Assembly: GCA_021776565.1 (NCBI GenBank) | Contig: JAJFFQ010000023.1 | Span: forward strand, 1-64,000 | Source of the DNA: Robiginitomaculum sp. | GTDB lineage: Bacteria > Pseudomonadota > Alphaproteobacteria > Caulobacterales > Maricaulaceae | DNA length: 64,000 nt | Direction of reading: 5' to 3' | Shown here: piece by piece, positions 20,203-29,177 of the stretch | How positions within the stretch are numbered: position 1 is the first letter of the stretch | Layout: the number at the start of each line of letters is the position of its first letter | Made by a program: the position numbers and the translations under genes | The notes under the pieces: model-generated | What the model was told of the DNA's origin: nothing | Seen by the model: only the letters and a program-made list of their open reading frames with translations | The model's database searches: none

Positions 20203-22343
<2,141 letters not shown>

Positions 22344-22409
22344 TCATGGAGCCGCCCTATCGCTGCCTTCTTGAGGCATCACACCAGTATGGCAGAGAAG
22401 GAAAGCACC

Positions 22410-22535
22410 ATGAACGCGCAGACCCGCAAAACCATCAGCCGGACATTCACATTTATCCTGCTTATTGCGGCCAGTTTTTGGTTGTTTGCCTGTCAGGCCA
22501 ATGCCGCAGTGCCGGGAGGTTCTGATGGCGGATAA
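22410..22535 (+). CDS. Small exported or membrane peptide (41 aa)
   Basis: A short frame with a good ribosome binding site (AAGGAAAG) before ATG 22410. It reads MNAQTRKTISRTF, then a hydrophobic stretch TFILLIAASFWLFAC, then QANAAVPGGSDGG. The N-terminus is a textbook signal sequence. LFAC could be a lipobox, or ANA-A a signal peptidase I site, leaving a mature piece of only about 6-17 residues. Its end overlaps the start of a second tiny frame by 11 bp in another frame. No family was recognised. It sits alone between aatA (divergent) and the TPR gene (convergent), so the pair should have its own promoter. Confidence 0.5.
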   Translation: MNAQTRKTISRTFTFILLIAASFWLFACQANAAVPGGSDGG

Positions 22536-22626
22536 AGTATTTGATGGTGGTTTGCGCCTGTTTACCCTGTGCCTTGGTCTGTTGGGGTTTATGTTTCTGA
22601 TGCGCGCAACTCTGTCACTGTTTTAG
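22525..22626 (+). CDS. Small hydrophobic protein (33 aa), coupled to the preceding ORF
   Basis: Reads MADKVFDGGLRLFTLCLGLL, then GFMFLMRATLSLF. One transmembrane helix covers most of the chain. A strong Shine-Dalgarno GGGAGG lies 6 bases before the ATG, inside the end of the 41-aa ORF, so translation is probably coupled. The stop lies 3 bp from the end of the convergent TPR gene. The tight packing (SD, overlap, immediate stop before the next gene) is what real small genes look like, but no homologue is recalled. Confidence 0.5.
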   Translation: MADKVFDGGLRLFTLCLGLLGFMFLMRATLSLF

Positions 22627-22629
22627 GGT

Positions 22630-23559
22630 TTAGTGCGCTTCACCCAGTGTGCCCAAAAGCACCCGCACCTGCGCCGCTTGTGCATCTGTTCCCCCCAGGC
22701 CCAGCGCCTGTTGATAGTGACGCCTTGCCAGTGCAGCATTACCGCTTTCCTGGGCAATAGCACCAAGGCCCATATAGGCTGAGATCATATCAGGATCAAA
22801 GGTCAGGAGGCGTTCAAATACTTCTTTGGCTTCATCATTTTTGCCCTCTTTGGCAATACAAGCTCCATAAAGTGAAAGTTTATCCAGCGCCCAGGGGTCA
22901 TCCTCAATGGCTAGTTCCGCCGCCGCACAGGATTTGGCATCAAGACGTTGTGGCGTAATCTTTGTCGCAGAGGCATCGCGGACAAGGCCGGTGCCACGCA
23001 CCGGTACGGGTGGTGATGTCGCAACATCACCATCACGGGTGGGGGCATTTTCATCATAATTTTGGTGAGTGTTTATTTGCTCATCTTTTGGTGCTGGCGT
23101 GATGCTGGCCACAATAGACGTCTTATCGTGCGTGACCGATGCCGTTGTGTTGGTAGCCGCCGGGGCAAAGCGCAAGCTGGCGGTTTGCACCTGCAAGGCA
23201 TGGTTAAATTGCGCCCGCAACAGCACTGAATGAGCGTATATTTTTACTTCGCTTTGCAAGGGCGGCTCGTTGAAATGATAAATCAGGCGGATGCCATTTT
23301 CGACCGGGCGGACATCAATTGCGGTGACCAGCTGAGTATCCGGTGGCTCGATCCGGGTCTTTTTTGCCTCAACGCCCTTGATAACAATCTCTATGCCGTC
23401 GGCACTGGCCTGTACGAACACTTCATCGGGTTGAGCATCAAAACGCACCAGACTAAGCGCAAATTTGTCGTCAATACCAAGGTTGACATCGCGAACACCG
23501 GCAATAACCGGCGCTGTGCAGATGAGGCTAATAACAAAGGCAAGCTTCAGACAACGCAT
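22630..23559 (-). CDS. Exported TPR protein with an AMIN-like N-terminal domain
   Basis: 309 residues from the ATG at 23559, chosen for its GGAG ribosome binding site and the signal peptide that follows at once (cleavage near VIAGV). Residues about 25-125 are beta-rich (VFVQASADGIEIVIKGVE, NGIRLIYHFNEPP) and resemble AMIN/periplasmic sandwich domains. A low-complexity linker follows, then about three TPR-like helical pairs (DPWALDKLSLYGACIAKEGK, FDPDMISAYMGLGAIAQESG, NAALARRHYQQALGLGG). A role in envelope complexes or pilus assembly (a TadD-like role) is possible, but it is not adjacent to the tad genes and nothing proves it. A CtrA-like box precedes it. Confidence 0.75.
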   Translation of the reverse strand: MRCLKLAFVISLICTAPVIAGVRDVNLGIDDKFALSLVRFDAQPDEVFVQASADGIEIVIKGVEAKKTRIEPPDTQLVTAIDVRPVENGIRLIYHFNEPPLQSEVKIYAHSVLLRAQFNHALQVQTASLRFAPAATNTTASVTHDKTSIVASITPAPKDEQINTHQNYDENAPTRDGDVATSPPVPVRGTGLVRDASATKITPQRLDAKSCAAAELAIEDDPWALDKLSLYGACIAKEGKNDEAKEVFERLLTFDPDMISAYMGLGAIAQESGNAALARRHYQQALGLGGTDAQAAQVRVLLGTLGEAH

Positions 23560-23593
23560 GAACGGGATCTCCATGGGATTATCTGAACGGGCT

Positions 23594-25960: not shown

Positions 25961-28900
25961 TTAATTCACCGCTTCAGCTTCAAGTTTTGTCAATAGCGCC
26001 GAATCAATACGGCCCGTTTGTGCCAAACCATTATCACGCTCATAGGCAATAACAGCGCGTTTTGTCGCATCGCCAATATTGCCATCCGCCGGGCCGGGAT
26101 TATAGCCCAGCCTGGCCAGAAGTATTTGTGTGCGGGCGATATTGGGTGCGGTGTTCAATTGTGGCCTGGCCCAGCTGACATTGTTAAAAACACCATTGGC
26201 AGCAAGATCAAGGGGCCGGGCACTAAAGTTTGCCAATAATTTATTGGCTTCACCCATGGCAGGGACGGGCAGGGACGCACCAATTTCATCAGCACGTTCT
26301 TTGGCACCCCCGTCACCAGCCTTGGCAGCAATGGAATACCAGGCGAAGGCTTCGATAAGGGATTCGGGAACCCCAAGGCCTTGTTCGTACAAAAAGGCCA
26401 GATTGTATTGGGAGTTGGTCAACCCCATGCGAGCTGCTTCCTGAAACCATTTGGCCGCCGTTTCATAGCTTTGCGGCACGCTATTGCCTTCGGCATACAT
26501 CATCGCAAGGTTGTGCATGGCCCGACGATTACCACCATTGGCTGCCCGTTCTGTCCAGCGGCGCCCTTCGGTGTCATCCTTGGCAACCCCTGTGCCGTCT
26601 TCATAAAGCTTGCCCAGACGATACTGGGCAATGGGAAGGCCGCGATTGGCGGCCTGACGCATCAGGGTAATACCGCCTTGTGTATCACCGGCATCTATCT
26701 TGGCAGAGGCAAGTTGAAACTGCGCTATCGGATCACCATTTGCTGCCGCCTGTTGAATGGTCAACCGTCCGGTGTTGCCCCCGGTATTGCCAATGGAGCC
26801 AGGACTGGTTTGGTTTTGCCCCGCCCTGGTTTTGCTGGCCTGCTCTAATGGTGCCGCCTTGACCGGAATGGTGGGTTGGGAGCGCGGTATACTTGCGGGC
26901 GTATTTGATGCTGTTTGTGATGTTCGGGCGGGTGTTTGACTGACTGTCTGAACCGGCAATGGTCGTGATGCAGTATTTTGTTTTGGCGGAGTGCTTGCCT
27001 GTGCTGGCTCTTTCTCTGGTGGGCTTTCAAATGTCGGAATTGTATCCGCACCATCCAGGCTTGGGGTTTGCACGGATGATTGCTGGTCGTTATCAACAGG
27101 CGATGGCAGGGCAGCAATTTGTGTATTTTGATCTATGTTACCAGTGCCATTTATCAGCGAATCCCAATTGCCATTATCAGCTGTTGCTGGCCCTGGGTTG
27201 GTATTGCTTCCCCGATTACCAAAATCCATGAATGTCATGCCGCCCGCGCCAACAATGGCAATAATGGCAATAAAACTGGCGGCCATAAGAAGTTTGCGTG
27301 AACCACCCGAGGGCGTGGGGGGGCCACCACTATGTGCTGTGCCTTGAGAGGATGCGCCCCCTCCTGGCACACGAACGCTACGCCGGGCGGCGGTTATAAA
27401 ACTGGCATCAGCGGTCGCGCCAACCGGGGCACGTTGTGCGGGTTCGTCGGGTGGGTAAATCGGCGCACTGATTATCGGCGCGGCCTCGGGGGCAACCTCT
27501 GATGGGGCTTCTGCGAATTGGTGTTCATGATCTGGCACCGGCCCAAACTCATCATCTGGTTGATTAACAATTTCAGGCGGAAGCGGCGGCAGGGACGGCG
27601 GCGCATTTTCAGAAAACATATCCGGTGGTCTAATCACTTCTTCCAGTGCGCAATTGATGTCCTGTGCAGACGTTGCCGCAAGGGGCGGCGGGGTTCCTGA
27701 ACCAGACAGGGTCGGGTCAAAGGGGGGCATAGCATCCGGGGGTTTTTCCAATGCCTCCAGGCGCTCGGTCAAGGCGGTCATGGCTTTTTGGACGGGAGAC
27801 TCATCCTGCGTTTGTGTCTCGCTGACATCCAGCCGGTCATGAATACGCCCCATGGCGTCTTCAATCATTTTTGCCGTGCGCTCTTCTGCGGCGGCCATGC
27901 GGGTTTCCAGATTGTCTTCGACACTGCGTTGCGCCTCAACAGTGCTCAGTTTTTCTTCAAGCCTTGTTATGGCCCCGGTCAAACCATCGCCAATTTTATC
28001 AATCGCGGCAGCGTGATCGTTTTGAAATTCACGAAATCGCCCATCCAGCATTTTATCCAGACCAATGGCCGTGTTGCGTTCTGTTTCAACAAACCGGTGT
28101 TCAATGGCATTGCCAAGTTTACCAACCTCGCTGGCAATGCGCTCCAGCGTGTTGGCATGACGTTTTTCTGTGCTGGTAAGGTTGTTACGCATTTCGCGAA
28201 GGGACGCCTCAAACTGTTCCAGACGTGGTGCCGCCGATTGCAACTCAATCTGGCTGGCTAGCTGCCCTCTGGTCTGGGCCACAACATGGATCAGTTCTTC
28301 ACTTAACGCCTTGAAGCGGCGAGAGAACATATCCGACAGGCCGTCACTGCCGTTTTCACTTATATTTTTCTCTGATTGTCGCATCCGGTCATCAACCGAG
28401 GCAAAACTGGCCTCCAGTGTGCGTACTGCATTGTCGGTCATGCGCTCGGCGGCGCCCAGACGCTGGCTTAGTTCATCGGATCGCGAATTGACCAGTTCAA
28501 GCTCTTTTGAAAGTTCATGACGCGCTCTGCCAAGTTGCAGGTCTGTTTGTTCGGAAACTGTATCAATGCGGCGGGCCGAATCCTCGGTAGCGCGATCAAC
28601 CTTGTTAATCACCCGATCCAGTTCATCACGGGATTTTCCAGCCAGAGCCTCAAGGGTATCAAGTGAACCTTCCAGCTTGTCTGTCACCCCTGTATGAGCC
28701 TTCTCCACGCCTTCCAGGCGCGTTAACATACCCAGAACCGATTGATCGATCCCGGTGATTGCCAGTGTTGAGCGGCGCTCCGCGGCTTCAAGCCGGGCGG
28801 TTAGCTCCCCGATGGCATCATGAACATCCAGATGGTTGGCATTATTGGAAAGAATGGACAGGGATCCAGGTGCGGTAAAACGGGCGCGTTCGTAAGTTTG

Positions 28901-29050
28901 CACACGGGCGTTGGCCTCTATTGGAGCTTCTCCTAAAAGGCGCCTGTTCATCCATTCGCCCAAGGTCAGGCCTTCATGCTGGGCGGCCGCTTTGGCCGCC
29001 TCACGTGCACGCGGATCAATACCCTTAACACTCCACGGCCCAGTGGCCAT
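25961..29050 (-). CDS. podJ: PodJ-like polar organelle development protein (coiled coil, TM, Sel1 repeats, peptidoglycan-binding domain)
   Basis: 1029 residues from the ATG at 29050, which has GGGAG 8 bases upstream; a GTG three codons earlier is less likely. The N-terminus GPWSVKGIDPRAREAAKAAA with TLGEWMNRRLL is the PodJ-type signature. Long coiled coils follow (about 50-430), then a proline-rich acidic region (to about 560), one membrane helix (about 585-605), a periplasmic low-complexity linker, about four Sel1 repeats (about 770-920), and a C-terminal peptidoglycan-binding domain (about 965-1025; GYNPGPADGNIGDATKRAV). In Caulobacter PodJ marks the new pole and recruits pilus and cell-cycle factors. 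The domain order matches; the length is close to the 974 residues of Caulobacter PodJ. Confidence 0.9.
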   Translation of the reverse strand: MATGPWSVKGIDPRAREAAKAAAQHEGLTLGEWMNRRLLGEAPIEANARVQTYERARFTAPGSLSILSNNANHLDVHDAIGELTARLEAAERRSTLAITGIDQSVLGMLTRLEGVEKAHTGVTDKLEGSLDTLEALAGKSRDELDRVINKVDRATEDSARRIDTVSEQTDLQLGRARHELSKELELVNSRSDELSQRLGAAERMTDNAVRTLEASFASVDDRMRQSEKNISENGSDGLSDMFSRRFKALSEELIHVVAQTRGQLASQIELQSAAPRLEQFEASLREMRNNLTSTEKRHANTLERIASEVGKLGNAIEHRFVETERNTAIGLDKMLDGRFREFQNDHAAAIDKIGDGLTGAITRLEEKLSTVEAQRSVEDNLETRMAAAEERTAKMIEDAMGRIHDRLDVSETQTQDESPVQKAMTALTERLEALEKPPDAMPPFDPTLSGSGTPPPLAATSAQDINCALEEVIRPPDMFSENAPPSLPPLPPEIVNQPDDEFGPVPDHEHQFAEAPSEVAPEAAPIISAPIYPPDEPAQRAPVGATADASFITAARRSVRVPGGGASSQGTAHSGGPPTPSGGSRKLLMAASFIAIIAIVGAGGMTFMDFGNRGSNTNPGPATADNGNWDSLINGTGNIDQNTQIAALPSPVDNDQQSSVQTPSLDGADTIPTFESPPEKEPAQASTPPKQNTASRPLPVQTVSQTPARTSQTASNTPASIPRSQPTIPVKAAPLEQASKTRAGQNQTSPGSIGNTGGNTGRLTIQQAAANGDPIAQFQLASAKIDAGDTQGGITLMRQAANRGLPIAQYRLGKLYEDGTGVAKDDTEGRRWTERAANGGNRRAMHNLAMMYAEGNSVPQSYETAAKWFQEAARMGLTNSQYNLAFLYEQGLGVPESLIEAFAWYSIAAKAGDGGAKERADEIGASLPVPAMGEANKLLANFSARPLDLAANGVFNNVSWARPQLNTAPNIARTQILLARLGYNPGPADGNIGDATKRAVIAYERDNGLAQTGRIDSALLTKLEAEAVN

Positions 29051-29177
29051 CCGAATCACTCCCCTCTTTGCTTACCCACAAGTTAGTCACACCTAGATGA
29101 GGTGTAAATATGCGGTATAACATACAACATACGGGGTTATCCCAAGGGGTAAGTCTGGTAACCCCGTGTCAACCTTG

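Follow-up and report, generated by a model that had tools for sequence, protein, structure and literature searches.

Small membrane-protein genes probably derived from a dismantled sortase operon in Robiginitomaculum

Two small overlapping genes next to aspC

The window analysed here is a stretch of 64,000 nucleotides from Robiginitomaculum sp. (genome G000 of our set). On its forward strand, two small open reading frames lie between an aspC-type aminotransferase gene (21,006 to 22,217, reverse strand; named by sequence reading), which is divergent and was used as a synteny anchor, and a convergent gene for a TPR protein (22,630 to 23,574, reverse strand), which abuts the pair in G000 and in its relative G017. 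ORF1 (22,410 to 22,535) runs from an ATG at 22,410 to a TAA ending at 22,535 and encodes 41 residues that read as a signal peptide or one-helix protein. ORF2 (22,525 to 22,626) runs from an ATG at 22,525 to a TAG ending at 22,626 and encodes a single-helix protein of 33 residues. Hydrophobicity is highest at residues 16 to 34 of ORF1 and at residues 10 to 26 of ORF2.

An earlier sequence-only reading of this DNA had described two tiny overlapping genes of 41 and 33 residues with good ribosome binding sites. We could confirm their coordinates and frames as well as both Shine-Dalgarno sites, AAGGAAAG before ORF1 (22,398 to 22,405) and GGGAGG before ORF2 (22,514 to 22,519), the latter situated within ORF1. 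The 11-bp overlap in different frames (22,525 to 22,535) and the distance of 3 bp between the ORF2 stop and the end of the TPR gene at 22,630 were likewise as described. A purine-rich site also precedes ORF1 in the relatives examined for it, and a site of the GGAG/AGGA type is found upstream of ORF2 in 9/10 genomes, being weak in G017. From the overlap alone, we infer that translation of the two genes may be coupled.

ORF1 had also been credited with a possible lipobox. The tetrapeptide LFAC is indeed encoded by codons 25 to 28 (22,482 to 22,493). According to the lipobox rule and the motif rule for signal peptidase I, F at position -2 is unusual for a lipobox, and an alternative type I cleavage site (A-N-A/A, residues 30 to 33) adjoins LFAC. 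The lipobox, and hence the putative status of ORF1 as a lipoprotein and substrate of signal peptidase II, is ambiguous.

A stretch 5' of ORF1 (GCCACAT...CAAATGG, 22,313 to 22,343) is partly conserved between loci carrying the small genes and loci carrying the intact operon described below. It is kept also where the pair (G004, G006) or ORF2 (G010) is located about 1.3 kb from aspC instead of adjoining it. Because the stretch stays with the pair at this distance, there are hints that it serves the pair and not aspC, and it is possibly a promoter of the two genes. A search for sigma-70-like promoters found none, with 0.4 expected.

Open reading frames of at least 30 codons are abundant in this DNA, with 120 of them overlapping a 10-kb stretch (six frames; ATG, GTG or TTG starts). 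Frames of this size are therefore common by chance, and the anatomy alone is no proof of genuine genes. Further along the window (25,961 to 29,059, reverse strand), a large protein is encoded that has a long charged N-terminal part and a C-terminal part reading like Sel1 repeats followed by a peptidoglycan-binding domain. We presume that it is perhaps a PodJ-like polarity factor.

Conservation and selection within the genus

In order to assess conservation, the locus was searched at the DNA level in 60 relatives and the own genome. Six of the 60 matched at E <= 3.4e-10 (G017, G002, G010, G012, G006, G004). Five of these carry ORF1 and ORF2 on the strand divergent from aspC (G017, G012, G002, G006, G004), with a stop/start overlap of 1 bp, and G010 has ORF2 only. 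ORF2 without a recognisable ORF1 was also found in G003, and in both of these genomes it is placed directly behind the partly conserved upstream stretch. G011 and G015 represent a second form, with an ORF2 of 34 residues in both and an ORF1 of 82 residues in G011. In G001, the contig end cuts ORF2 after 14 residues, and an ORF1-like frame of 33 residues is present.

An ORF2 profile matched 11/18 genomes of the genus at E <= 0.001, 10 of these 11 being query rows. The profile built from the G000 group (clade B) matched 9/137 genomes of the family, all belonging to the same genus; eight of the nine were query rows, and the ninth was the 14-residue match at the contig end of G001. A methyltransferase-like gene, so named by sequence reading, is located 3' of ORF2 in G012 and G003 (L055, L058).

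ORF2 is open, has kept its start and measures 33 to 34 residues in all ten genomes with the reduced locus. Among the eight clade-B rows, K4, D7 to R11, C16, L20 and G21 are invariant, and the helix is preceded by the motif K-[VLI]-[YFQ]-DGGLR. The underlying DNA of codons 7 to 10, GATGGTGGTTTG (22,543 to 22,554), is nearly invariant in 8 genomes including the silent positions; this conservation is broken in G001, and the degenerate pattern of the element occurs once in G000. ORF1 is far less constant: its C-terminal length is highly variable, and G000, G002, G006 and G012 lack its second half. Because of this loss in four genomes and the absence of ORF1 from G010 and G003, ORF1 looks partly dispensable.

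Substitutions were counted according to Nei and Gojobori and compared by Fisher test. For ORF2, the pairs G000-G017, G012-G002, G006-G004, G010-G003 and G011-G015 were used. Together they showed changes at 72.2 of 132.0 synonymous sites versus 50.8 of 371.0 nonsynonymous sites (p 4e-19). For the first 33 codons of ORF1 (three pairs), the counts were 27.9 of 71.0 versus 29.1 of 226.0 (p 3e-6). Four of the five ORF2 pairs are sisters in the rpoB tree (bootstrap 84-99). The weakest pair, G010-G003 (p 0.018), is a non-sister pair whose branches may be shared, with G010 missing from the rpoB tree. The synonymous divergence of the ORF2 pairs ranges from about 0.6 to saturation, and part of the silent bias may have accumulated while the locus was not yet reduced.

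Conservation in relatives together with the silent bias rules out that the two frames are chance ORFs. The sequence-only reading had proposed this comparison of relatives as a check on its claim that the genes are real, and the claim is borne out by a conserved overlapping pair, by products with membrane helices and by a coding signature in which recurring frames carry substitutions strongly skewed to silent ones. The loss of the frames, or their breakage by indels, which had been named as evidence to the contrary, was not seen for ORF2 and was seen in part for ORF1, with its variable end and its absence from two genomes. The compact coupling had further been read as typical of small membrane-protein pairs. 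This holds as far as conserved small genes are concerned, but it overlooked a likely origin from a sortase and its target.

The intact sortase operon and its likeness to the small genes

In 3/18 genomes of the genus (G014, G008, G013), an intact gene pair occupies the place of the small ORFs. The first gene, of about 690 codons, encodes a VIT/VWA marine sortase target (TIGR03788, 692-698 bits, cut-off 551.65) and the second a class GN sortase (TIGR03784, 192-197 bits, cut-off 158.25). The VIT, VWA and sortase domains of G008 were matched in Pfam as well. Target and sortase genes overlap by 4 bp in these relatives, compared with 11 bp for ORF1 and ORF2 in G000. Among 61 genomes, TIGR03784 was over cut-off in 11 and TIGR03788 in 10, and G000 itself contained no match to either family at E <= 0.001. 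Beyond the genus but within the family, the intact operon was found at this position in G033, G020 and 6/9 of the g9 genomes fetched, its distance from aspC being about 2.7 kb in G025. Because genera other than this one (G033, G020, g9) have it at the corresponding position, the intact operon is likely the ancestral state.

The gene following the sortase in G008 and G013 has relatives behind the pair in G011 and G015 (E <= 1e-40). The full frame behind the pair in G002 matches it weakly (E 6e-5 and 2e-4), and the first 110 residues of this G002 gene give E 0.20. Among the frames searched from G000, G017, G012, G003, G014, G026, G030, G031 and G035, no relative reached E <= 0.05. The post-sortase gene of G008 has no Pfam match and a weak TolA match below cut-off. 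In L135 (4306 to 5025), the gene behind the sortase encodes a proline-rich one-helix protein with a weak TolA match below cut-off; besides those behind the pair in G011, G015 and, weakly, G002, it has a relative near aspC in G023.

ORF1 was compared with the targets in both directions. An ORF1 profile of seven query rows found the target N-terminus beside aspC in G014 (E 3.2e-6), G008 (0.005) and G013 (0.017). With the clade-B ORF1 profile and 843 frames, the target start of G014 was found at E 1.3e-4 and those of G013 and G008 at 0.23 and 0.4, with one unrelated frame (E 0.06) ranking between G014 and the other two. In the reverse search with the N-terminal ~37 residues of the G014 target, ORF1 was recovered, among the matches listed, in L006 (E 5e-4) and weakly in L007, L002, L003, L005, L001 and L060 (E 0.003-0.9). 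A profile of g9 target signal peptides scored ORF1 of G000 no better than shuffled sequences (141/300 as good). The N-terminal signal peptide resembles that of the genus's intact targets, clearly for G014 and more weakly for G008 and G013, and ORF1 is likely left over from the part of the sortase target gene that encoded the N-terminus.

With the TIGR03788 targets, ORF1 shares the position divergent from aspC, the signal peptide and the overlap with the next gene. In G017, G004, G011 and G015, it also shares a C-terminal membrane helix, though one without the full LPxTA-like motif. It differs from the targets in being without the VIT and VWA domains and, in G000, in having only 41 residues. 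In G000 the C-terminal helix is lost as well, and the LPxTA-like motif, helix and basic tail of a target C-terminus are all absent from ORF1. None of the reduced forms examined has an intact LPxTA-like motif. ORF1 gave no Pfam or NCBIfam match over cut-off. Residues 12 to 31 resemble the colicin lysis protein family (PF02402; 20 bits, E 6e-4), and membership was rejected at a gathering cut-off of 27, with the hydrophobic stretch alone producing the match.

For ORF2, the likeness to the sortase is clearest in the second form. With the G011/G015-form profile, the sortase frames of G008, G013 and G014 were the best three of 843 among the matches listed (E 0.087, 0.17 and 1.1), and in ungapped comparisons of G011/G015 ORF2 with sortase N-termini, 0/500 class-shuffles scored as well. 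The same profile beat shuffles for G000, G017, G002 and G004, but not for G012, G003, G010 and G006. For clade-B ORF2, hhalign against the sortase N-terminus gave a probability of 2.5% and E 0.018, and the best hmmsearch match was a sortase start (E 1.2), closely followed by an unrelated frame (E 1.4). In a register test over 25 offsets, one and the same register came out best in all 24/24 clade-B comparisons (p 0.000-0.074); these are non-independent, because the eight ORF2s are related to one another, as are the three sortases. Residues 1 to 33 of the G014 sortase found ORF2 in L061 and L063 at E 0.065 among the matches listed. The other listed matches of the G014 sortase and target were at chance level, the lowest being a stretch within aspC in L059 (E 0.020).

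Homology of ORF2 to the N-terminal membrane helix of the sortase is likely according to our analysis: the sequence match is weak, and position and register speak for it. ORF2 resembles the class GN sortase (TIGR03784) as the second gene of the pair, with an overlapping start and a putatively corresponding N-terminal membrane helix in register. It differs in comprising only about 33 of the ~193-202 residues, with no catalytic sortase domain and no Pfam or NCBIfam match over cut-off, and in its DGGLR motif, which is missing from six intact sortases aligned. Because these six lack it, DGGLR may have been gained after the reduction.

Probable reduction of the operon and its possible recurrence

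The reduction seems to predate the splits between G002, G006 and G012 and between G000 and G017, because ORF2 ends at 33 to 34 residues throughout, the sequence after its stop is common to G002, G006 and G012, and the abutting TPR gene is common to G000 and G017. In aspC and rpoB trees, the intact species form a group together with G011/G015 (100/100) that lies away from the G000 group. Within that group, the branching order is supported by aspC (97/92, 95/94) and not resolved by rpoB. If no regain occurred, two or more independent reductions within the genus follow from these trees. A transferred operon could also have re-entered at this position, which would be a less simple account.

Beyond the genus, the stretch upstream of aspC was fetched for 55 of the 101 genomes with aspC, those of G069 and G090 being short. 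Target and sortase were found together in 8/55 stretches (G020, G033, G025, G110, G111, G114, G117, G126). G112 and G152 have sortase fragments without a target in the fetched stretch, and G027 has a partial sortase. At the 47 loci without a target, a filter for a hydrophobic ORF with an SD-like site, run with no shuffled control, found 13 cases, and manual inspection of the frames at six more loci contributed G077 and G066 plus a remnant in G112. Small hydrophobic ORFs of 52 to 87 residues are present in 5/5 fetched genomes of g7, 5/5 of g14, 2/2 of g15, 1/1 of g10 and 2/7 of g19. Their pN/pS lies at 0.11-0.28, measured on a single pair in g7 and on three pairs from three genomes in g14. The idea that the gene after the small ORFs in g14, g15, g10 and g19 is the post-sortase gene was unsupported by the search for relatives.

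When 15 small ORFs were scored with the profile of g9 target signal peptides, seven exceeded every one of 300 class-shuffles (G031, G023, G079, G080, G083, G077, G112), among them all five small ORFs of g7 and the one of G112. The score was borderline for G066 (3/300) and G030 (12/300) and indistinguishable from shuffles for G067, G128, G026, G035, G089 and G000. In G112 (g9, L257), a signal-peptide remnant of the target stands with a short sortase fragment, apparently a recent reduction. The case for recurrence beyond the genus is partial overall, with the break in G112 evident and a recurrence in g7 likely.

Taking the locus as a whole, we consider it probable that a sortase operon was dismantled here and that its membrane anchors persist in the form of small membrane proteins kept by purifying selection. 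In the ancestral operon, divergent from aspC, the gene for a VIT/VWA sortase target would have come first, its stop overlapping the start of a class GN sortase gene. In the ancestry of the G000 clade, the bulk of both genes would have been deleted, with loss of the extracellular and catalytic domains. The signal peptide would be what is retained of the target, together, in some relatives, with a C-terminal membrane helix at the position of the sorting helix, and the first ~33 residues with their membrane helix what is retained of the sortase. Both ORFs would be translated, ORF2 coupled to ORF1 through the overlap, and the products inserted in the inner membrane, the segment K-[VLI]-[YF]-DGGLR before the ORF2 helix being probably cytoplasmic. 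We posit that they act as small membrane proteins, most likely by attaching to a larger partner in the membrane or modulating it. In the G000 clade, where two species retain ORF2 but not ORF1, ORF2 would be the core and ORF1 an accessory or a coupling leader.

It is unlikely, by our estimate, that both ORFs are plain decaying remnants, functionless leftovers of the lost operon that are open by inheritance. Decay would fit the variable C-terminus of ORF1, its disappearance from G010 and G003, and the operons that look broken elsewhere (G112, G152, G027). Yet silent changes far outnumber replacements in ORF2 pairs that are diverged from ~0.6 to saturation at synonymous sites, and neutral relics so diverged would presumably carry stops and indels, whereas ORF2 stays open with its start and 33 to 34 residues in ten genomes. 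Less probable still is a regulatory leader, in which the pair would be kept for translational or attenuation control of a neighbouring gene and not for its peptides. The overlap with a Shine-Dalgarno site inside ORF1 would suit such a role, as would the post-sortase gene directly after the pair in G011 and G015 and its weak relative in G002. However, G000 and G017 have nothing close downstream on that strand, where the TPR gene is convergent, and amino-acid conservation runs along ORF2. An unrelated small-protein pair located by chance at the former operon site would accord with the weak similarity between clade-B ORF2 and sortases, but we hold it to be very improbable given that gene order and overlap are shared, that the signal peptide matches, that the helix falls in register and that the end points are similar, and given the clearer sortase match of G011/G015.

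For the dismantled operon with surviving anchors, we further propose, tentatively and with slightly more doubt than belief, a recurrent route by which the anchors were repeatedly kept as selected small proteins, at least twice in the genus and probably in other genera (best case g7), the anchors perhaps still forming one membrane complex. Keyword searches of the literature returned no report on Robiginitomaculum and sortase, and one may exist under other words. Small membrane proteins often lack any known ancestry and count as orphans. With intact, broken and reduced stages at one syntenic locus, the emergence of two small proteins from a larger operon would become traceable and testable, and it raises the question of whether the anchors of sortase systems may have a role beyond holding enzyme and substrate.
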